From: Qipengyuania oceanensis
Lineage (GTDB): Bacteria > Pseudomonadota > Alphaproteobacteria > Sphingomonadales > Sphingomonadaceae
DNA: 64,000 nt
Assembly: GCF_009827535.1 (NCBI RefSeq)
Contig: NZ_WTYN01000001.1
Coordinates: forward strand, 124,001 to 188,000
Reading direction: 5' to 3'
This document shows positions 22,660 to 31,461 of this stretch, in pieces. The translations under genes were made by a program, and so were the position numbers. Numbering within the stretch: position 1 is the first letter of the stretch; each line of letters begins with the position of its first letter. The notes below the pieces were generated by a model. That model was not told the origin of the DNA. It saw only the letters and a program-made list of their open reading frames with translations, and did no database searches.

Positions 22660-23616
22660 ATGGCGACCGCCTCGATTCCTTCCGAACTCGTCGGCCCCGG
22701 ACATCCGGAGCGGCAGTACCTCGACCTCATGCGCCGCATCAGGGAAGAGGGCAGCGAACGCGTGGATCGCACGGGAATCGGCACGCGATCGATCTTCGGC
22801 ACGATGCTGCGGTACGATCTTTCCGACGGCATGATGCCGCTGATCACGACCAAGCGCGTCTACTGGAAGACCGCCACCCGCGAGATGCTGTGGTTCCTCA
22901 CCGGCGAGACCAATATCCGGCCGCTGGTGCTGCAGGGCGTCAAGATTTGGAACGAGTGGCCGCACGCCAATTACGTGCGCCAGACCGGCGATGCGATCTC
23001 GCTCGGGGATTTTGTACAGCGGATTGCCGATGACGAGGATTTTGCCGCGCGCTGGGGCGATCTCGGCCCGGTCTACGGCAAGCAATGGGTCGACTGGCCG
23101 ACTTATCGCTATCGCAAGGACGGTCTCTACGAGAAGGGCGAGGGGATCAACCAGGTCGCCGAGGTGATCGCGAGCCTGCGCGCCAATCCCGGTAGCCGGC
23201 GGCATATCATCGAAGGTTGGAACGTTGCCGAGCTGGACCGGATGGCGCTGCCCCCGTGCCACAAGACCTACCAGTTCCATGTCGCGGGCAACCGCCTCAA
23301 CTGCGCGCTGTACCAGCGTAGCTGCGACGTGGCACTGGGCCTGCCGTTCAACCTGTGGGGCGGGGCTCTGCTCACCCGGATGATCGCCCAGCAGGTCGAC
23401 CTCGAGCCCGGCGAGTTCGTCTGGATGGGCGGTGACACGCATCTCTACCTCAACCACGAGGAACTGATTGCCGAGCAGCTCGGGAGGGAACCACAGGGTC
23501 TACCGCGGCTTGAAATAAAGCGGCGGCCCGACAGCATTTTCGGATACCGGATCGAGGATTTCGAGGTGCACGACTACCAGCCGCATCCGCCGATCAAGGC
23601 TCCAGTGGCAGTCTGA
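22660..23616 (+). CDS. thyA: Thymidylate synthase
   Basis: A 318-residue ThyA, which methylates dUMP to dTMP using methylene-tetrahydrofolate. Catalytic Cys is in LPPCHKTYQF; the dUMP-phosphate arginines (DRTGIGTRSIFG; NPGSRRHI) and the nucleotide-binding YQRSCDVALGLPFN are present, as is HLYLNHEE near the C terminus. A modest insertion in the middle (GDAISLGDFVQRIADD) is of a kind seen in several ThyA proteins. No dihydrofolate reductase gene follows; the branched-chain dehydrogenase operon does. Confidence 0.96.
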   Translation: MATASIPSELVGPGHPERQYLDLMRRIREEGSERVDRTGIGTRSIFGTMLRYDLSDGMMPLITTKRVYWKTATREMLWFLTGETNIRPLVLQGVKIWNEWPHANYVRQTGDAISLGDFVQRIADDEDFAARWGDLGPVYGKQWVDWPTYRYRKDGLYEKGEGINQVAEVIASLRANPGSRRHIIEGWNVAELDRMALPPCHKTYQFHVAGNRLNCALYQRSCDVALGLPFNLWGGALLTRMIAQQVDLEPGEFVWMGGDTHLYLNHEELIAEQLGREPQGLPRLEIKRRPDSIFGYRIEDFEVHDYQPHPPIKAPVAV

Positions 23617-23628
23617 AAGCCCGCGACC

Positions 23629-23657
23629 TTGACCAAATCATCGCCGCGCAATAATAT
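23629..23657 (+). promoter_or_regulatory. Promoter of the branched-chain 2-oxoacid dehydrogenase operon
   Basis: TTGACC (23629-23634), a 17-bp spacer and TAATAT (23652-23657) form one of the best sigma-70 matches in the window. The E1 alpha start is about 38 bp downstream, with AGGGAGAG as ribosome binding site. Confidence 0.65.
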
Positions 23658-23695
23658 GTCGCGAGCTTAAAACATTGCGTCAGGGAGAGCGCCGC

Positions 23696-24991
23696 ATGGC
23701 CGACAAGGCCGCAACCACACCGGGTAGCAACCGCCCCTCGCTCGAACTGCACGTTCCCGAACCGAAGTTCCGCCCCGGGGATGCCGTCGATTTCGGCCAT
23801 ATCGCCATCCCTTCGGCAGAGGGGCAGAAGCGGCCCGATGAAGCCAGCGAACCGAGGGATCTGTCGGAGTATCCCTACGGCCTCGTCCGAGTGCTGGGCG
23901 ACGACGATCGGGCGCACGGCGAATGGGATCCCAAGCTCGATCCCGAAACGCTGCGCACGATGCTGCGCAACATGGCGCTGGTGCGCGCTTTCGACGAGCG
24001 GATGTTCCGCGGGCAGCGGCAGGGCAAGACCAGCTTCTACATGAAGTGCACCGGCGAGGAGGCGACCAGCGTCGCCGCCGCCATGGCGCTCGCCAGCGAC
24101 GACATGGTGTTCCCCAGCTACCGCCAGCAGGGCATTCTGATCACGCGCGGCTACGATCTGGTCGAGATGATCAACCAGATCTATTCGAACAAGGGCGACA
24201 AGCTGCTCGGTCGGCAGTTGCCGATCATGTATTCGAGCCGGGAACACAGCTTCTTCAGCATTTCCGGCAATCTCGCGACGCAGACACCGCAAGCGGTCGG
24301 CTGGGCTATGGCGAGCGCGATCAAGCGCGATAGCCGCATCGCCGCGACCTGGGTGGGCGAGGGCAGCACCGCGGAAGGCGACTTTCATTCCGCCTGCACC
24401 TTCGCGACCGTGTACAACGCGCCGGTCATTCTCAACGTCATCAACAACCAGTGGGCCATCTCGAGCTTCTCTGGATTCGCCGGGGCCGAGCGGACGACCT
24501 TCGCGGCGCGCGCACTGGGCTACGGTCTTGCCGGGCTGCGGGTCGACGGGAACGACGCGCTGGCGGTCTACGCGGCGCAGGCCTGGGCAGCGAACCGGGC
24601 GCGGGCGAACGGCGGCCCGACGCTGATCGAATACTTCACCTATCGCGCGGAAGGGCATTCGACATCGGACGATCCGAGCGGATATCGCAGCGCGACCGAA
24701 CGCGAGGAATGGCCGCTGGGCGACCCGATCAACCGCCTGAAAAAGCATCTGATCGCGATTGGCGAGTGGGACGAGGAGCGTCAGGCGGAGATGGACCGCG
24801 AGGCCGCCGAGCGAGTGAAGGCCGCGACCAAGGAAGCCGAGAAGAACGGCATCCTCGGCCACGGGATGCACCATCCGTTCCGCACCATGTTCCAGGATGT
24901 CTACGAGGAATTGCCCTGGCACCTCAAGGAACAGGCCGAACAGGCGCGTCACGAGCGCGAGGTCAAGTGGCCGGAGGGCAAGCCGGAATGA
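23696..24991 (+). CDS. bkdA1: Branched-chain 2-oxoacid dehydrogenase E1 alpha subunit
   Basis: A 431-residue thiamine-diphosphate-dependent E1 alpha, which with E1 beta decarboxylates branched 2-oxoacids from valine, leucine and isoleucine. The ThDP motif is TWVGEGSTAEGDFHSA ending at NNQWAIS. The N-terminal stretch (YPYGLVRVLGDD) and the ring FYMKCTGEEATSVAAA match the branched-chain rather than the pyruvate enzyme. The C-terminal YRSATEREEWPLGDPINRL is also typical. ATG 23696 is chosen for AGGGAGAG upstream. The stop overlaps the next start (ATGA, 24988-24991). Confidence 0.93.
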   Translation: MADKAATTPGSNRPSLELHVPEPKFRPGDAVDFGHIAIPSAEGQKRPDEASEPRDLSEYPYGLVRVLGDDDRAHGEWDPKLDPETLRTMLRNMALVRAFDERMFRGQRQGKTSFYMKCTGEEATSVAAAMALASDDMVFPSYRQQGILITRGYDLVEMINQIYSNKGDKLLGRQLPIMYSSREHSFFSISGNLATQTPQAVGWAMASAIKRDSRIAATWVGEGSTAEGDFHSACTFATVYNAPVILNVINNQWAISSFSGFAGAERTTFAARALGYGLAGLRVDGNDALAVYAAQAWAANRARANGGPTLIEYFTYRAEGHSTSDDPSGYRSATEREEWPLGDPINRLKKHLIAIGEWDEERQAEMDREAAERVKAATKEAEKNGILGHGMHHPFRTMFQDVYEELPWHLKEQAEQARHEREVKWPEGKPE

Positions 24992-25890
24992 AAAGGCCTG
25001 GCGAAATGCGCAAGTACGCAGGAATGCGGATCCTAGCAGTGGCCCTTGCGGCTTCCCTGACCGCTGGTTGCGCGATGGACCGGGCAGCAATCGCAGACCC
25101 ACAGGCGGTCACGGCCGCGACGGCGGAGACGGTCACTCTTGCGGTACGCGAAGGCCGGACGACCGAACTAACCATCTGGTCGCCCGCCAAACCGCGCGGA
25201 ATTGCGATCTTCTCGACCGGGATGGGTTCTTGGCCGGAACGGTATGAACGCGCTGCACGCATGCTAAACGAAGAGGGCTTCGTCGTTGTCGCCCCGTTGC
25301 ACGTGGACTCCCAGCGAAGCCCCGATCTCGGCAAGTTCTCGATGCAGGAAAGCCTGGTTGAACGGGTTGCCGACTTGCAGGCGAGCGCGGCATACGCCTC
25401 CCTGCGATTTGCCGGCCTGCCGATGATCGCCGTTGGCCATAGTTACGGCGCTTTGCTTTCGATGGGAGAAGGCGGCGCGTTCGCCGGCATGATTCCGATG
25501 CGAATACCGCAGGTTCGCGCAGTGCTGGCTTTCTCTTCTCCCGCGCGCATTCCGGGCCTTGTCAGCGAGCAGGCATATTCGACGATCGAGGTTCCGGTAA
25601 TGATGATCACGGGCACCGCCGATACGATCCCGGCGCAGATGGGATATGCCAATACTGCTGCCGATCATCTGCTGCCGATCGAAAGTACGAAGACGTCGGC
25701 TTACGCGGTGACGGTGCAGGATGCCGATCACGGGCTGGTCGACGACGCGAACCTTCTTGCCCGAGCGGCACCGGCGATCCGGCTCTTCCTGCAGGGACAT
25801 GGTCTCGACGATAAGCAAGCCGTCGCGCGGCTCACGGCCTGGAAGGCTCACGCCGGAGACGAGTTCGTGGTGAAGGGGTCGAAGCGATGA
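24988..25890 (+). CDS. Lipoprotein alpha/beta hydrolase embedded in the bkd operon
   Basis: A 300-residue predicted lipoprotein: the signal ends in the lipobox LTAGC near residue 30. The body is an alpha/beta hydrolase: IAIFSTGMGSWPERYE in the oxyanion region, nucleophile motif GHSYGA, then ITGTADTIP and DADHGLV offering the acid and histidine of the triad. It should act in the periplasm or at a membrane face, unlike the cytoplasmic dehydrogenase. It overlaps E1 alpha by ATGA upstream and E1 beta by ATGA downstream, so translation of all three is coupled. The in-frame ATGs at 25006 and 25024 are alternatives. Substrate unknown. Confidence 0.85.
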   Translation: MKRPGEMRKYAGMRILAVALAASLTAGCAMDRAAIADPQAVTAATAETVTLAVREGRTTELTIWSPAKPRGIAIFSTGMGSWPERYERAARMLNEEGFVVVAPLHVDSQRSPDLGKFSMQESLVERVADLQASAAYASLRFAGLPMIAVGHSYGALLSMGEGGAFAGMIPMRIPQVRAVLAFSSPARIPGLVSEQAYSTIEVPVMMITGTADTIPAQMGYANTAADHLLPIESTKTSAYAVTVQDADHGLVDDANLLARAAPAIRLFLQGHGLDDKQAVARLTAWKAHAGDEFVVKGSKR

Positions 25891-26945
25891 GCACGGAAGT
25901 GAAAGAGGCTTTGGCGACGTCGAACGGCACCGAACGACGGCTCAACATGATCGAGGCGATCAACGAGGCGCTCGACATCATGCTCGCGCGCGATCCGGAC
26001 GTTATCATCATGGGCGAGGATGTCGGGTATTTCGGCGGCGTATTCCGTTGTACCGCCGGCCTGCAGGAGAAACACGGCAAGACCCGGGTGTTCGACACGC
26101 CGATCTCTGAATGCGGAATCATCGGCGTTGCCGTCGGCATGGGCGCCTACGGCCTCAGGCCCGTTCCGGAAATCCAGTTCGCCGATTACATCTATCCCGG
26201 GCTCGACCAGCTCATCAGCGAGGCGGCGCGCCTGCGGTATCGCTCGGCGACGGAATTCATCGCCCCGATGACGGTGCGCTCGCCCTTCGGCGGGGGCATT
26301 TTCGGCGGGCAGACGCACAGCCAGAGCCCCGAGGCGCTGTTCACCCACGTATCGGGTCTCAAGACCGTGATTCCCTCGACGCCTTACGACGCCAAGGGCC
26401 TGCTGATTGCCGCGATCGAGGATAATGATCCGGTCATCTTCTTCGAACCCAAGCGGATCTACAACGGACCGTTCTCGGGCTATTACGACAAGCCGGTCGA
26501 GCCGTGGAAGCGACACGACGCGAGCGTGGTCCCGGAAGACTATTACCGCATACCGCTCGGCAAGGCGCGCACCGTGCGCGAAGGCGATGCGCTGACCATC
26601 CTGACCTACGGCACAATGGTCCATGTCGCCGAGGCGGTGTGCCGCGAGAAGGGCTGCGATGCGGACATCCTCGACCTGCGCACGCTCGTCCCGCTCGATA
26701 TCGAGGCGATCGAGGCCAGCGTCGAGAAGACCGGCCGTTGCCTGATCGTCCATGAGGCGACCCGGACCAGCGGTTTCGGCGCGGAGCTTTCGGCCCTTGT
26801 TACCGAGCGGTGCTTCTATCACCTCGAAGCTCCGGTCGAACGCGTGACCGGCTTCGACACGCCCTATCCCCACAGCCTCGAATGGGCCTATTTCCCCGGC
26901 CCGGTCCGTATCGGCGAGGCCATCGACAAGATCCTGAGCGAGTAA
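25887..26945 (+). CDS. bkdA2: Branched-chain 2-oxoacid dehydrogenase E1 beta subunit
   Basis: A 352-residue E1 beta, partner of E1 alpha. Transketolase-like pyrimidine-domain motifs are visible: VIIMGEDVGYFGGVFR, FDTPISECGIIGVAVGMG and PVPEIQFADYIYPG, followed by RSPFGGGIFGGQTHSQSPE. The C-terminal domain includes ILDLRTLVPLD and HEATRTSGFGAE. ATG 25887 overlaps the stop of the embedded hydrolase gene. E2 follows after 6 bp. Confidence 0.95.
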   Translation: MSTEVKEALATSNGTERRLNMIEAINEALDIMLARDPDVIIMGEDVGYFGGVFRCTAGLQEKHGKTRVFDTPISECGIIGVAVGMGAYGLRPVPEIQFADYIYPGLDQLISEAARLRYRSATEFIAPMTVRSPFGGGIFGGQTHSQSPEALFTHVSGLKTVIPSTPYDAKGLLIAAIEDNDPVIFFEPKRIYNGPFSGYYDKPVEPWKRHDASVVPEDYYRIPLGKARTVREGDALTILTYGTMVHVAEAVCREKGCDADILDLRTLVPLDIEAIEASVEKTGRCLIVHEATRTSGFGAELSALVTERCFYHLEAPVERVTGFDTPYPHSLEWAYFPGPVRIGEAIDKILSE

Positions 26946-26951
26946 CCGACC

Positions 26952-28247
26952 ATGGCAAAGTTCACATTCAACATGCCCGATGTCGGCGAAGGCGTTGCCG
27001 AGGCGGAAATCGTCGACTGGCACGTCAAGGTCGGCGATACCGTCAGCGAAGACCAGCACCTGGTCGACGTGATGACAGACAAGGCGACCATCGACATCGA
27101 AAGCCCGGTCGACGGCAAGGTTCTGGAAGTCGCGGGCGAAGTCGGCGACACGATCGCGGTCGGCTCGATGCTGCTGGTGATCGAGACCCAAGGCGATGTC
27201 GAGGTCGAGGAAGACTCACCTGCCGAGACCACGCCTGCTCCCGCGCCGAAGGATGAAGACGTGGTCGAGCGAATTGAGGTCGAGACGTCGGATGCGAGCG
27301 ATGCCGACGATGCGATTGCTGCCGATCCCGACCCGCAGCCGCTGCCTGAGCCGACCCCGGCACCTGCGCCGCAATCGCACGCGAAAGTGCTGGCCTCGCC
27401 CGCAGTCCGTGCGCGAGCGAAGGACCTTGGCGTCGACCTGTCGCAGGTGAAGCCGGCCGGCGATGGCCGCGTTCGCCATGCGGATCTCGATAGCTTCCTG
27501 TCCTACAACGGCGGATTCTCCGCCGGTGGAGCCACGCGATCGGACGAGGAAATCAAGGTTATCGGCCTGCGCAAGCGCATCGCGCAGAACATGGCAGCCT
27601 CCAAGCGTTCGATCCCGCATTTCTCCTACGTCGAGGAAGTCGATGTCACGGAATTGGAGCGGCTGCGCGCCCAGCTGAACAGCGCGAAGGGCGATCGCCT
27701 GAAGCTAACGATGCTCCCGCTGCTGATCACCGCTATCTGCAAGCTGGTCCCCGAGTTCCCGATGATCAACGCTCGCTACGATGACGAGGCCAATGTCGTG
27801 ACGCGGCACGGATCGGTCCATCTCGGCATGGCGACCCAGACAGATGGCGGGCTGATGGTCCCCGTGATCCGGGATGCGCAGGCGAAGAACCTGTGGCAGC
27901 TCGCTCGGGAAATCACGCGCCTGGCCGAAGCTGCGCGCGACGGTTCGGCGAAATCGGAGGAACTGTCTGGATCGACGCTGACGATCACCTCGCTCGGCCC
28001 GCTTGGCGGAGTAGCGACGACACCGGTCATCAACCGGCCGGAAGTCGCGATCATCGGCCCCAATCGCATCATCGAGCGGCCGATGTTCGTCAGCGACGGA
28101 AATGGCGGCGAGCGCATCGAGAAGCGCAAGCTGATGAATATCTCCATCAGTTGCGATCATCGCGTCGTCGACGGCTGGGATGCCGCCAGCTTCATCCAGG
28201 AGATGAAGAAGCTGATTGAAGCGCCGGCGAGGTTGCTCGCCGACTGA
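26952..28247 (+). CDS. bkdB: Branched-chain 2-oxoacid dehydrogenase E2 (dihydrolipoyl acyltransferase)
   Basis: A 431-residue E2 with one lipoyl domain (lipoyl Lys about residue 44 in VMTDKATIDI), an acidic Ala/Pro linker, a peripheral-subunit-binding domain (VLASPAVRARAKDLGVDL to HADLDSFL) and the catalytic acyltransferase domain ending in the active-site ISCDHRVVDGWDAASF. It transfers acyl groups from E1 to CoA. No E3 (lipoamide dehydrogenase) gene follows within the window, so E3 is probably shared with the other 2-oxoacid dehydrogenases. Confidence 0.95.
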   Translation: MAKFTFNMPDVGEGVAEAEIVDWHVKVGDTVSEDQHLVDVMTDKATIDIESPVDGKVLEVAGEVGDTIAVGSMLLVIETQGDVEVEEDSPAETTPAPAPKDEDVVERIEVETSDASDADDAIAADPDPQPLPEPTPAPAPQSHAKVLASPAVRARAKDLGVDLSQVKPAGDGRVRHADLDSFLSYNGGFSAGGATRSDEEIKVIGLRKRIAQNMAASKRSIPHFSYVEEVDVTELERLRAQLNSAKGDRLKLTMLPLLITAICKLVPEFPMINARYDDEANVVTRHGSVHLGMATQTDGGLMVPVIRDAQAKNLWQLAREITRLAEAARDGSAKSEELSGSTLTITSLGPLGGVATTPVINRPEVAIIGPNRIIERPMFVSDGNGGERIEKRKLMNISISCDHRVVDGWDAASFIQEMKKLIEAPARLLAD

Positions 28248-28256
28248 CTTGACCGT

Positions 28257-28643
28257 TCAGCGCACGATCGCGCTGTAGGCAAGGCGGCGTGTCGCGCCCG
28301 TGCGCCAGCGAAGGTGCGTAACCCGGCCGCTCGCATTGCTGTCTGCGGCCTGCCAGCTGCGTCCGCCGTCTCGCGACAGCTCGACATCGTCGAGGCTCGC
28401 GTCGAGGAAGCTGAGGTGCGACGGCACCTCGCTGGTCAATACTTCGTTGCGGCGGGGCAGGGCGGACCAGTCCAGCACCGCTACTACGCGATCGCCCCGG
28501 CGCAATTCGCGCGGTTGCGACACCATGCGTTGCGAGCCGTCACGGCTCTCGAGATAAATGCGGCTGTCGACCGCGCGGTCCTGCGCGCTGAGCGGCCCCC
28601 AGAACATTGCCATCATTGCCATGCATTCGAGAATTCTGCGCAT
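28257..28643 (-). CDS. Exported hypothetical protein
   Basis: A 128-residue protein with a signal-like N terminus (MRRILECMAMMAMFWGPLSAQ). The mature part (ESRDGSQRMVSQPRELRRGDRVVAVLDW, split by a turn) resembles the repeated beta-sandwich modules of surface proteins where a PxxLxxGDxVxYxL phrase recurs; the similarity is weak. ATG 28643 is preferred; ATG 28658 is also in frame. It is convergent with bkdB, 9 bp apart. Confidence 0.55.
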   Translation of the reverse strand: MRRILECMAMMAMFWGPLSAQDRAVDSRIYLESRDGSQRMVSQPRELRRGDRVVAVLDWSALPRRNEVLTSEVPSHLSFLDASLDDVELSRDGGRSWQAADSNASGRVTHLRWRTGATRRLAYSAIVR

Positions 28644-28779
28644 CGATTGCCCCCGCATCGCGCTGTTGTTGCGAGGCGGCAAATGGCGCCTGAGCGGTCA
28701 AAATATGGTTAACGCGGTGGCAGTTTTCTTCGTCCGAAGGGCGTGGGAAAAAACCATGCCCAAAGCGCCCCGAACGCGG

Positions 28780-28808
28780 TTGACAGCCTTTCGACCCTCC
28801 ACTAGATG
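28780..28808 (+). promoter_or_regulatory. Promoter of tRNA-Asp
   Basis: Consensus TTGACA (28780-28785), a 17-bp spacer and TAGATG (28803-28808), 36 bp before the tRNA. Confidence 0.7.
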
Positions 28809-28844
28809 CGCGGCTCCCAAGAGGCGCTGAAGCCGCTTAAATGC

Positions 28845-28921
28845 GCGGGTGTAGCTCAGTTGGTTAGAGTATCGGCCTGTCACGCCGAGGGTCGCGGGTT
28901 CGAGTCCCGTCACTCGCGCCA
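28845..28921 (+). tRNA. tRNA-Asp (GTC)
   Basis: Acceptor GCGGGTG/CACTCGC (one G-T pair), anticodon loop CTGTCAC with GTC, T loop TTCGAGT, discriminator G and encoded CCA. Confidence 0.97.
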
Positions 28922-28936
28922 CTTGGGACCATCTTT

Positions 28937-30019
28937 CTAGAGAAGCTGATCGAATGTGATCGTGGATTTGCCTGCGGGCAGGCTGACGATCATGCCGTCC
29001 TTCGCCAGTTCGAGGTCGCCGGAAAAAGCTTCGCGCGCGCTGCCGAGGAAGGCCTCGTTCATGAGCGCTACGGGCGGTCCGGGAACCATGTGGTACAGCA
29101 CCAGCGTCGATGCGCCGGCCCGCTCGGCAATTCGCGCTGCCTCGAGTGGCGTTGCGTGGTAATCGGGAATGTCGGTCATGATCTTCGCCAGCCGCGGCTG
29201 GTCGTGCCGCTTCAGCGCGGCGCCCATCCGGCCCACCATCTGAGGATTGAGCGCGTCGTGGAAGATGACGTCCGCATTCTTGGCAAATACAGCCAGATCG
29301 GGAACGGCAGAGGTGTCTCCGCTGATCACCACCGCGCGCCCGCCGTACTCGATGCGATAGGCGAAGGCGAAATCGACCGGGCTGTGATCGACCCGCAGCG
29401 CTTTGATCACCACCCCGTTCTCGGAGAAAACCATACCGTCCCAGCCGGCCGCTTCGAGCGCATCGATGTCGATGACCTTCGCATCTGCGCCAAAGCCGCC
29501 GGGCTTGGCAACTTGCGGGCCGTGATGCGCGATCCTGAAGCCGCGATCGGGAGCGTAGGCGCTGGTGAAGCCTGCCACTGCCTCGTCGGTCCGCGGGGGG
29601 CCGTAAATCGGCAACGGCGTGTTGCGGCCGCCGGCAATCCAGGCCTGCAGCATGAGTTCGCCGAGACCATCTATGTGATCGGAATGCAGATGCGTCAGGA
29701 AAGCCGCATCGAGCCGGTCGAACGGAAACTGCATCGCGCCGAGCTTGCGGATAGAGCCGGAGCCTGAATCGAAGACGAATCCGTGCTTACCTGCGAGTAC
29801 GGCGATGCACGGTCCGGCTCGCTCTGCATCGGCCAGAGGGGCGCCGCTGCCGCAGACGAAGGCGTGCAGGCCGTCCGGCAATTCGGCGACTAGATCCCGC
29901 TGGACACGCTGATCCACCGCCCGGTCGAACAGGCGTTGTCCGATCGCGCGCTGGTTGACCCACGCGAGCGCCGCCACGGTGAGCAGAACGATTAGCGCAT
30001 GCCCGAGCAGGCGCTTCAC
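28937..30019 (-). CDS. Membrane-anchored metallo-beta-lactamase-fold hydrolase
   Basis: A 360-residue protein with one N-terminal hydrophobic segment (LLGHALIVLLTVAALAW) and an MBL domain: zinc ligands THLHSDHIDG, further HHGP, SGDTS, and a late H in ILYHM-like context (VLYHMVPGP). The arrangement is that of the RNase Z/arylsulfatase-like branch, but the leader implies a periplasmic enzyme. GTG 30019 is chosen because it overlaps the stop of the upstream transporter (GTGA). Substrate unknown; the neighbour suggests a pair that hydrolyses and imports an organic compound. Confidence 0.85.
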   Translation of the reverse strand: MKRLLGHALIVLLTVAALAWVNQRAIGQRLFDRAVDQRVQRDLVAELPDGLHAFVCGSGAPLADAERAGPCIAVLAGKHGFVFDSGSGSIRKLGAMQFPFDRLDAAFLTHLHSDHIDGLGELMLQAWIAGGRNTPLPIYGPPRTDEAVAGFTSAYAPDRGFRIAHHGPQVAKPGGFGADAKVIDIDALEAAGWDGMVFSENGVVIKALRVDHSPVDFAFAYRIEYGGRAVVISGDTSAVPDLAVFAKNADVIFHDALNPQMVGRMGAALKRHDQPRLAKIMTDIPDYHATPLEAARIAERAGASTLVLYHMVPGPPVALMNEAFLGSAREAFSGDLELAKDGMIVSLPAGKSTITFDQLL

Positions 30020-31461
30020 GCGCGGACGTCTCGTTCGGCCAGCTGGCGCAGGTTCTCCTCGTGGCCGGCCTTGTCGATCCTGTAGCGCGAGATGCACCAC
30101 AGCGCGCTCAGCCACAGCACCAGCAGGGTGGGGGCATAGAACGCGCCGAGGTTCCACAGGATCTGCGGCGCCACGCTCGACGGTTCGGCACCTTCGGGAA
30201 ACTGCACGATGGAGAGGATCAGGCCCGCGGCGAGCACGCCGAGGCCCTGCGTCGTCTTCCGGGTAAAGGTGAGCGAGGCGTAATAGACCCCCTCGTTACG
30301 GCGACCGGTCCTCAGTTGGTTGGACTCGACGAGGTCGGCGATCATCGCATAGGCCGTTGTGGTCACCGCGATGATCAGCGAGAGGTCGACGACGTTGATC
30401 GCCAGCACCAGGGGGAAGAGCAGCGGATCGCCGTTTTCCGGCATCAGCCCGGCGAGGCGCGCAAGGACCGGTGCGGGCTGGATAGTGAAGGCGAGAACGC
30501 CGAGGATCATCGTCGCCTTCTTCTTGCCCCAGCGCCGGCTTGCCCAGGGCGCGACGATGAAGCCTATCGCTGCCGAGAAGAACACCGTGCAGGTCCAGAT
30601 GAAGATCTGGAATTCGGAGAATCCCCAGAAGTAATTGAGCATCAGGAAGGCAAGCGCCGCGGACAGGCCGCTCGCGATTGCGAAGATTACGGTCGAAAAG
30701 AACAGGGCGATGAAGCTCTTCTCGCTCAGCGTCTCGATCATCTCGCGAAAGATTCGCCGCACGCTGTAGCGTTCGCCGCGAGCAACCGGTCGGTGGAGAT
30801 AGGGGATGCGGCTATGCGTGCCCAGCGCGGAGACCATGATGGCGATGAAGATCAGCACGCTGGCGATAATGCCGTAGGTCTCGAAAGCCTCGCGGTCGCG
30901 CATTCCGAGCGGTCCGGTCAGCAAGATGCCGAACATCAGCACGCTCATCACGTTGCCGCCGGTCCAGGCGAAGAACATGCGGAACGACTGAAGACTCGTG
31001 CGCTCGTCGTAATCGGTGCTCAACTCGGGGATCAGCGCCGAACTGGGAGTTTCGTAGAAGGTGATGAACGTCCGGATCAGGATCGCGATAAGCGTGAGGT
31101 AGACGAACAATCCGGTCTGACCCCAGTCCGGCGGGTTCCAGAGCAGGAAATAGCTGAGCGCCACGGGGATCGCGGCGGCATACATGAAGGGGTGTCGACG
31201 GCCCCATTTCGAATGGAGATTGTCGGACCAGTAACCGACCAAGGGGTCCGAAAGGGCATCGGCGCACAATGCGATCAGGATGGCGAGACCTACGAGGCCC
31301 GGCTCGAGCCCGACGACGGTGCCATAGAAAAGCAGCAGGAAATAATCGAAGCCGTTGTTCTTGATCCCGAATGCGGCTGCGCCGAAGCCATACGCCGATT
31401 TCAGGCCGATCGTTGCCGGAGGCGCAAGCTCCGCGCCTGCAACACCTTCGCGTGATACCAT
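30016..31461 (-). CDS. GPH/MelB-type MFS transporter
   Basis: A 481-residue transporter with about twelve membrane segments. The motif ALSDPLVGYWSDNLHSKWGRRHPFMY is split in this entry as ALSDPLVGYWSD and KWGRRHPFMY; it is the loop of the glycoside-pentoside-hexuronide:cation symporter branch. FYETPSSALIPELS in the next loop also fits. Substrate (sugar, glycoside or other organic solute) is not determinable. It overlaps the downstream MBL hydrolase gene by GTGA, so the two form an operon. Confidence 0.88.
   Translation of the reverse strand: MVSREGVAGAELAPPATIGLKSAYGFGAAAFGIKNNGFDYFLLLFYGTVVGLEPGLVGLAILIALCADALSDPLVGYWSDNLHSKWGRRHPFMYAAAIPVALSYFLLWNPPDWGQTGLFVYLTLIAILIRTFITFYETPSSALIPELSTDYDERTSLQSFRMFFAWTGGNVMSVLMFGILLTGPLGMRDREAFETYGIIASVLIFIAIMVSALGTHSRIPYLHRPVARGERYSVRRIFREMIETLSEKSFIALFFSTVIFAIASGLSAALAFLMLNYFWGFSEFQIFIWTCTVFFSAAIGFIVAPWASRRWGKKKATMILGVLAFTIQPAPVLARLAGLMPENGDPLLFPLVLAINVVDLSLIIAVTTTAYAMIADLVESNQLRTGRRNEGVYYASLTFTRKTTQGLGVLAAGLILSIVQFPEGAEPSSVAPQILWNLGAFYAPTLLVLWLSALWCISRYRIDKAGHEENLRQLAERDVRA

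Follow-up and report, generated by a model that had tools for sequence, protein, structure and literature searches.

A putative exported alpha/beta hydrolase gene between the E1 alpha and E1 beta genes of a bkd operon in scattered Sphingomonadaceae

In the window (the whole stretch of 64,000 nucleotides of Qipengyuania oceanensis DNA analysed here), the gene for an alpha/beta serine hydrolase with an export-type N-terminus lies between the E1 alpha and E1 beta genes of a branched-chain keto acid dehydrogenase (bkd) operon, and the sequence at both of its ends allows a four-nucleotide overlap of the coupling type. As read from the sequences, the gene occupies the same position in 24 genomes, belongs there to one clade and is under purifying selection. 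Its recurrence in 24 sampled genomes from a single family shows that the arrangement is real and under selection. The firmest of the predictions drawn from it are that hydrolase output would be coupled to that of the dehydrogenase and that the enzyme would act outside the cytoplasm. The arrangement is a recurrent combination of known parts, a variant of a known operon. A hydrolase in the bkd seam was not described among the matches listed in a search of the openly licensed literature (titles and abstract openings).

The operon and its two joints

The operon is of the bkd type by sequence, with an E1 alpha of the 2-oxoisovalerate class and a substrate preference that is predicted. All of its genes lie on the forward strand. 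E1 alpha of the 2-oxoisovalerate (branched-chain keto acid) dehydrogenase (23696–24991, 431 aa) was assigned from Pfam and solved-structure matches. It matched PF00676 at 1.5e-93 and the 2-oxoisovalerate dehydrogenase E1 alpha N-terminal family PF12573 at 8.6e-17 (61.1 bits, cut-off 25), and its best solved matches were the 2-oxoisovalerate dehydrogenase alpha subunits 2bp7 (4.5e-139) and 1qs0 (5.3e-139). E1 beta of the same dehydrogenase (25887–26945, 352 aa) contains Transket_pyr and Transketolase_C, and E2, the dihydrolipoyl acyltransferase of the same complex (26952–28247, 431 aa), contains lipoyl, E3-binding and catalytic domains. The order E1 alpha, E1 beta, E2 on one strand is that of other bkd operons; the window differs from them by the hydrolase cistron between the two E1 genes. 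No E3 gene was seen after E2 when the list of open reading frames was inspected by eye to about 31 kb. The first open reading frame after E2 (within 28248–31461) encodes 141 aa on the reverse strand and has no Pfam match. A tRNA-Asp gene lies 3′ of E2 at 28845–28921, and 3′ of it an MBL-fold gene lies on the reverse strand at 28937–30157. On the other side, thyA (22660–23616, forward strand, PF00303) is 5′ of the operon. A thyA match was present in 19 of the 20 relatives that were read (L031–L050); in the twentieth, L038, the stretch read stops inside E1 alpha.

Positions 23400–28900 were scanned with consensus patterns. Two promoter-like sites were found where 1.0 was expected, so the signal is weak: a sigma-70-like match upstream of E1 alpha (23629–23657, forward strand, 9 of 12 matches) and a second site, on the same strand, after E2. 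The scan found no promoter-like site within the four genes from E1 alpha through the hydrolase and E1 beta to E2, and no terminator-like site on the forward strand of the scanned region. The result fits a single transcript, although it is no proof of one.

The hydrolase gene (24988–25890, forward strand, 300 aa) was defined from the list of open reading frames, a Pfam match and a structural model. E1 alpha ends in GAATGA, and the hydrolase ATG at 24988 lies inside this stop region, giving joint 1 (ATGA, 24988–24991, forward strand). The 3′ end of the hydrolase gene is GCGATGA, and the E1 beta ATG at 25887 falls on the hydrolase stop, giving joint 2 (ATGA, 25887–25890, forward strand). That the gene is wedged between E1 alpha and E1 beta with ATGA at both ends, as the original prediction held, can be read directly from the window. 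Across the 24 inserted loci, which are related to each other and so do not amount to 24 independent trials, a 4-nt overlap was available at joint 1 in every case (14 GTGA, 10 ATGA), and joint 2 allowed one in 20 loci (18 ATGA, one GTGA and one TTGA), the remaining four having an offset of +2 or +3 and no overlap; the start codons are predictions, and the choice of start favoured an overlapping one wherever it existed. GTG and TTG starts were rendered as M in the translations.

In experiments on six gene pairs from H. volcanii and E. coli, translation was coupled by short overlaps, and with gaps of about 20 nt the coupling was nearly lost (PMC10666635). The same paper describes an enrichment of such overlaps where neighbouring genes encode parts of one complex, and proposes that they help to secure precise stoichiometry and co-translational assembly (PMC10666635). 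SD-like sequences precede both window starts (−10.0 and −8.6 kcal/mol). Sites of −4 kcal/mol or better precede 18 of 24 starts at one joint and 17 of 24 at the other, against 49% of random in-gene stretches, which is a weak difference. Because SD-like sequence at both starts makes independent initiation possible, the original wording, in which the overlaps were forcing coupled synthesis, was too strong in its verb, although the coupling-type overlaps on which it was built are present.

The encoded hydrolase

The hydrolase matched Pfam Hydrolase_4 (PF12146) over residues 68–159 with 36.3 bits (cut-off 27), and all four members of alignment A4 matched the same family at E ≤ 0.01. These are monoacylglycerol-lipase-like alpha/beta hydrolases, and monoglyceride lipases were among the best solved sequence matches of the window protein; it differs from them in covering only profile positions 2–91 of 239 and in its export-type N-terminus, and its activity is predicted. 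The nucleophile of the GxSxG type is Ser152 (25441–25443) in GHSYG (residues 150–154), invariant in all 24 inserted copies and in a 22-row alignment. Asp212 (25621–25623) and His248 (25729–25731), also invariant in 24 of 24 and encoded like Ser152 on the forward strand, are the predicted catalytic Asp and His of a triad, their roles being suggested by their places in the model. No paralogue of the hydrolase was found in its own genome at E ≤ 0.001.

An AlphaFold2 model of the protein (pLDDT 88.4, pTM 0.83) gave as its best structural match a variant of IsPETase (Z 24.2, 221 residues, 2.4 Å, 15% identity), and the overall fold of the model is the same as that of cutinases and PET hydrolases (IsPETase, LCC, TfCut). 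IsPETase is a secreted enzyme. The PETase motif is GWSMG, whereas the window protein has GHSYG, and it scored 13.9 bits against the PET hydrolase-like family PF12740, whose cut-off is 28. The modelled fold is cutinase/PETase-like, and by fold alone it confers no membership and implies no shared substrate.

A signal peptide with a loose lipobox, LTAGC, is predicted at residues 1–28 (24988–25071, forward strand; ILAVALAASLTAGC28), with a hydrophobic peak of 2.30 from residue 15. By simple patterns an export-type N-terminus was found in all 24 inserted copies, 18 of them Tat-like and six Sec-like, and their hydrophobic peaks were 1.69–2.57, whereas E1 beta did not exceed 1.25; the exported hydrolase of the original prediction agrees with this. 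N-termini were also scored with a strict lipobox pattern, [LVI][ASTVI][GAS]C, and with a loose, PROSITE-like one. The window protein fails the strict pattern (Thr at −3 in LTAGC), which L122 alone of the 24 passes, and the loose pattern was found in the window protein and L122 only. The protein had been called lipobox-bearing, which holds for the loose pattern and fails for the strict one; with a lipobox in two of 24 copies and a Tat-like N-terminus in 18, general lipidation is not supported, and a lipoprotein as a clade trait was rejected. The shared trait is probably export, not lipidation, judging from these N-termini.

Pairwise dN/dS of the hydrolase was 0.11–0.32, against 0.02–0.17 for E1 beta (11 close pairs). 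In all 11 pairs dN/dS was higher for the hydrolase than for E1 beta, and dS was higher in 10 of the 11. By this comparison of sequences the hydrolase is selected, yet it is less constrained than E1 beta.

Distribution and descent of the insert

The same gene was found in the same seam in 24 distinct genomes: the window, three of 60 genomes of the Qipengyuania group (the genus of G254), one genome of another genus, and 19 of 295 genomes of the genus of Sphingomonas kyeonggiensis, in which an E1 beta match was present in 287. A scan of named genomes placed the gene at this seam in Sphingomonas kyeonggiensis and Qipengyuania polymorpha, and the match in G254 is placed as in the Q. polymorpha genome. 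A profile search of 397 genomes drawn from the family gave three with the insert; G254 was counted in both this sample and the sample of 60. Neighbourhoods were checked for 30 of 41 match rows in the family search, the others giving no new locus, and for 30 of 34 in the search of 295 genomes. Outside this second check were G514, in which the hydrolase and E1 beta are on separate contigs, a G519 row representing an additional copy that lies far away from the inserted gene, and two G599 rows that are a single broken gene in a genome whose E1 seam is empty. In 296 genomes drawn from the order, a sample whose share from other families is not stated, there were 14 matches at E ≤ 1e-40, all in the family of the window. 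The genus of the window is represented in the genome collection by the window's genome alone. An accident of one strain was ruled out by the 24 genomes that carry the insert; the outcome that the original prediction had named as contrary to it, an insert in one strain with unconserved overlaps, did not occur (overlaps at 24/24 and 20/24 joints).

In a first survey of 199 family genomes, both E1 genes were placed in 148 among the matches listed, and of these the insert was found in the window only. The distance between the E1 alpha and E1 beta matches, measured between match ends and not between codons, was −10 to 238 bp in 147 of the 148 genomes and 898 bp in the window. In 60 insert-free loci, a set that overlaps with the 147 genomes, the two matches were at most 271 bp apart. 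Gaps of this size leave no room for a gene of the hydrolase's size. Among twenty relatives with similar E1 genes, the available E1 alpha/E1 beta offset was −4 in 17 cases, −1 in two and −16 in one. Given such insert-free relatives, either the line of the window gained the hydrolase gene or the relatives lost it.

A tree of 80 hydrolases (out of 118 loci; at least 150 bits and at least 260 aa, duplicates removed) placed the 23 distinct inserted ones in a single clade (96/97). Its sister group was composed of 13 Xanthomonadaceae and seven Sphingomonas-side hydrolases outside the seam. An E1 tree built from 84 loci implies nine or more changes of the insert state, of which five or more are forced by starred branches; this is a quick tree with 60 hand-chosen insert-free loci, so the nine changes hold for that sample. 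From the patchy presence (19/295, 3/60 and 3/397) and these changes of state it follows that the dehydrogenase complex can do without the hydrolase. The data fit a single entry with subsequent losses, whether or not exchange also took place.

Transfer, not loss, may lie behind the insert of the window itself, a Sphingomonas-type donor having supplied the hydrolase to the same seam; we regard this as possible but doubtful, and it is compatible with any functional reading. The hydrolase of the window falls with L114 and L119 on the Sphingomonas side (99/98, and 97/97 in a second tree), apart from the other erythrobacterial-side inserts, and its E1 is on the erythrobacterial side of the E1 tree. 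Against transfer, a single clade of all erythrobacterial-side inserts was not rejected (AU p 0.296), and the E1 segments beside the window joints share 82 and 85% identity with insert-free erythrobacterial ones, against 71 and 76% with those of L114 and L119. This comparison of identities gave no sign of conversion or import of the E1 flanks at the window joints.

The sister hydrolases (Xanthomonadaceae and some Sphingomonas) are of the same subfamily, with 38–45% identity to the window protein, and unlike it they have no adjoining E1 gene. In the Xanthomonadaceae loci (L052–L064) an MBL-fold gene and upp were both present in the same 11 of 13 (PF00753 and PF14681 in the annotation of L053). 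The MBL-fold gene is directly 5′ of the sister hydrolase in several of these loci. On the Sphingomonas side, purD was near the hydrolase in three of nine loci outside the seam. None of the sister contexts read (MBL-fold gene with upp, or purD) held a pointer to branched-chain substrates, and the branched-ester metabolism suggested in the original prediction is not supported. Two hydrolases outside the seam, L187 (G620) and L189 (G599), look broken, with internal stops or a change of frame; both are absent from the hydrolase tree and were put in the sister group by similarity alone. A third, G626, was flagged with one stop, has a 275-aa open frame and was not counted as broken.

Possible reasons for retention

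We tentatively favour the reading that the exported hydrolase is coupled into the bkd operon and tied to the branched-chain pathway by a nutrient link, and hold it to be somewhat short of an even chance. The gene would have entered the E1 alpha/E1 beta seam once, early in the family, and would have been retained as a coupled operon member in a scattered set of species. A single transcript would span the operon; ribosomes finishing E1 alpha would re-initiate on the hydrolase and those finishing the hydrolase on E1 beta, so that hydrolase output would track dehydrogenase output. The signals, fold and triad suggest an enzyme of the esterase/lipase type that would leave the cytoplasm via Tat or Sec and act in the periplasm or at the outer membrane. 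On the substrate side, we infer that its extracytoplasmic products may be small acids or amino acids that the branched-chain pathway of the same cell burns; release and oxidation would thus rise together. Counted in favour of this explanation were the insertion with its overlaps, the published coupling by such overlaps, the recurrence in one clade, the seam that elsewhere has no room, the invariant triad, dN/dS, the export-type N-termini and the fold. Counted against it were the patchiness, the other contexts of the sister hydrolases, the higher dN/dS and dS than in E1 beta, and the four of 24 loci without an overlap at joint 2.

Nearly as likely as the pathway link is a passenger kept by its position: an enzyme with an extracytoplasmic job of its own, unrelated to branched-chain catabolism, whose gene arrived in the seam by accident. 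Since nonsense and frameshift mutations in this gene would break the coupling to E1 beta, the usual decay would be barred and the gene could leave only by an exact deletion from joint to joint. The restriction to one clade, the patchy presence and the other contexts of the sister hydrolases favour such a passenger, as does the clean −4 joint available in many insert-free relatives (20 of 24 loci on the erythrobacterial side, 16 of 36 on the Sphingomonas side). None of the 24 seam copies was flagged with a stop and two of nine Sphingomonas-side copies outside the seam look broken, a difference in the direction expected of a passenger that is not significant (Fisher p 0.068). The invariant triad and the dN/dS range argue that the activity itself is selected, which does not separate a passenger from the pathway link. 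The SD-like sequence before E1 beta may reduce polarity. In addition, 14 of the 36 insert-free Sphingomonas-side operons have no tight seam, their nearest candidate E1 beta start being 37–202 bp past the E1 alpha stop (L139, L142, L146, L149–L151, L154–L157, L159, L164, L165 and L173); coupling of E1 alpha to E1 beta is therefore not universal in Sphingomonas-side operons, and the losses, if they are losses, were not all exact. That the gene is kept by its place, as the gene of an exported enzyme locked between two subunits and either maintained in active form or lost by a clean joint-to-joint deletion, we consider unlikely.

Much less probable is a spacer that adjusts stoichiometry: by reducing or postponing E1 beta synthesis relative to that of E1 alpha, the added cistron would tune assembly, and its enzyme activity would be secondary. 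The hydrolase does part two subunits of one complex, the type of pair in which short overlaps are enriched (PMC10666635), but if spacing were its role, neither the invariant triad nor the conservation of export-type N-termini would be needed. An artefact of assembly or annotation was ruled out for practical purposes by the same structure in 24 genomes.

Whichever reading applies, the gene of a probably exported enzyme splits the E1 subunit pair and yet keeps coupling-type overlaps on both sides. The insert comes and goes among relatives, which provides a natural series of matched operons, some carrying the insert and others lacking it, for testing the purpose of the coupling. The arrangement points to an uncharacterised hydrolase whose expression would be tied to branched-chain catabolism. 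If the gene is indeed kept by its place, genes unrelated to an important operon could in general become entrenched in it by way of coupling seams, and such entrenchment would require no mobile element.
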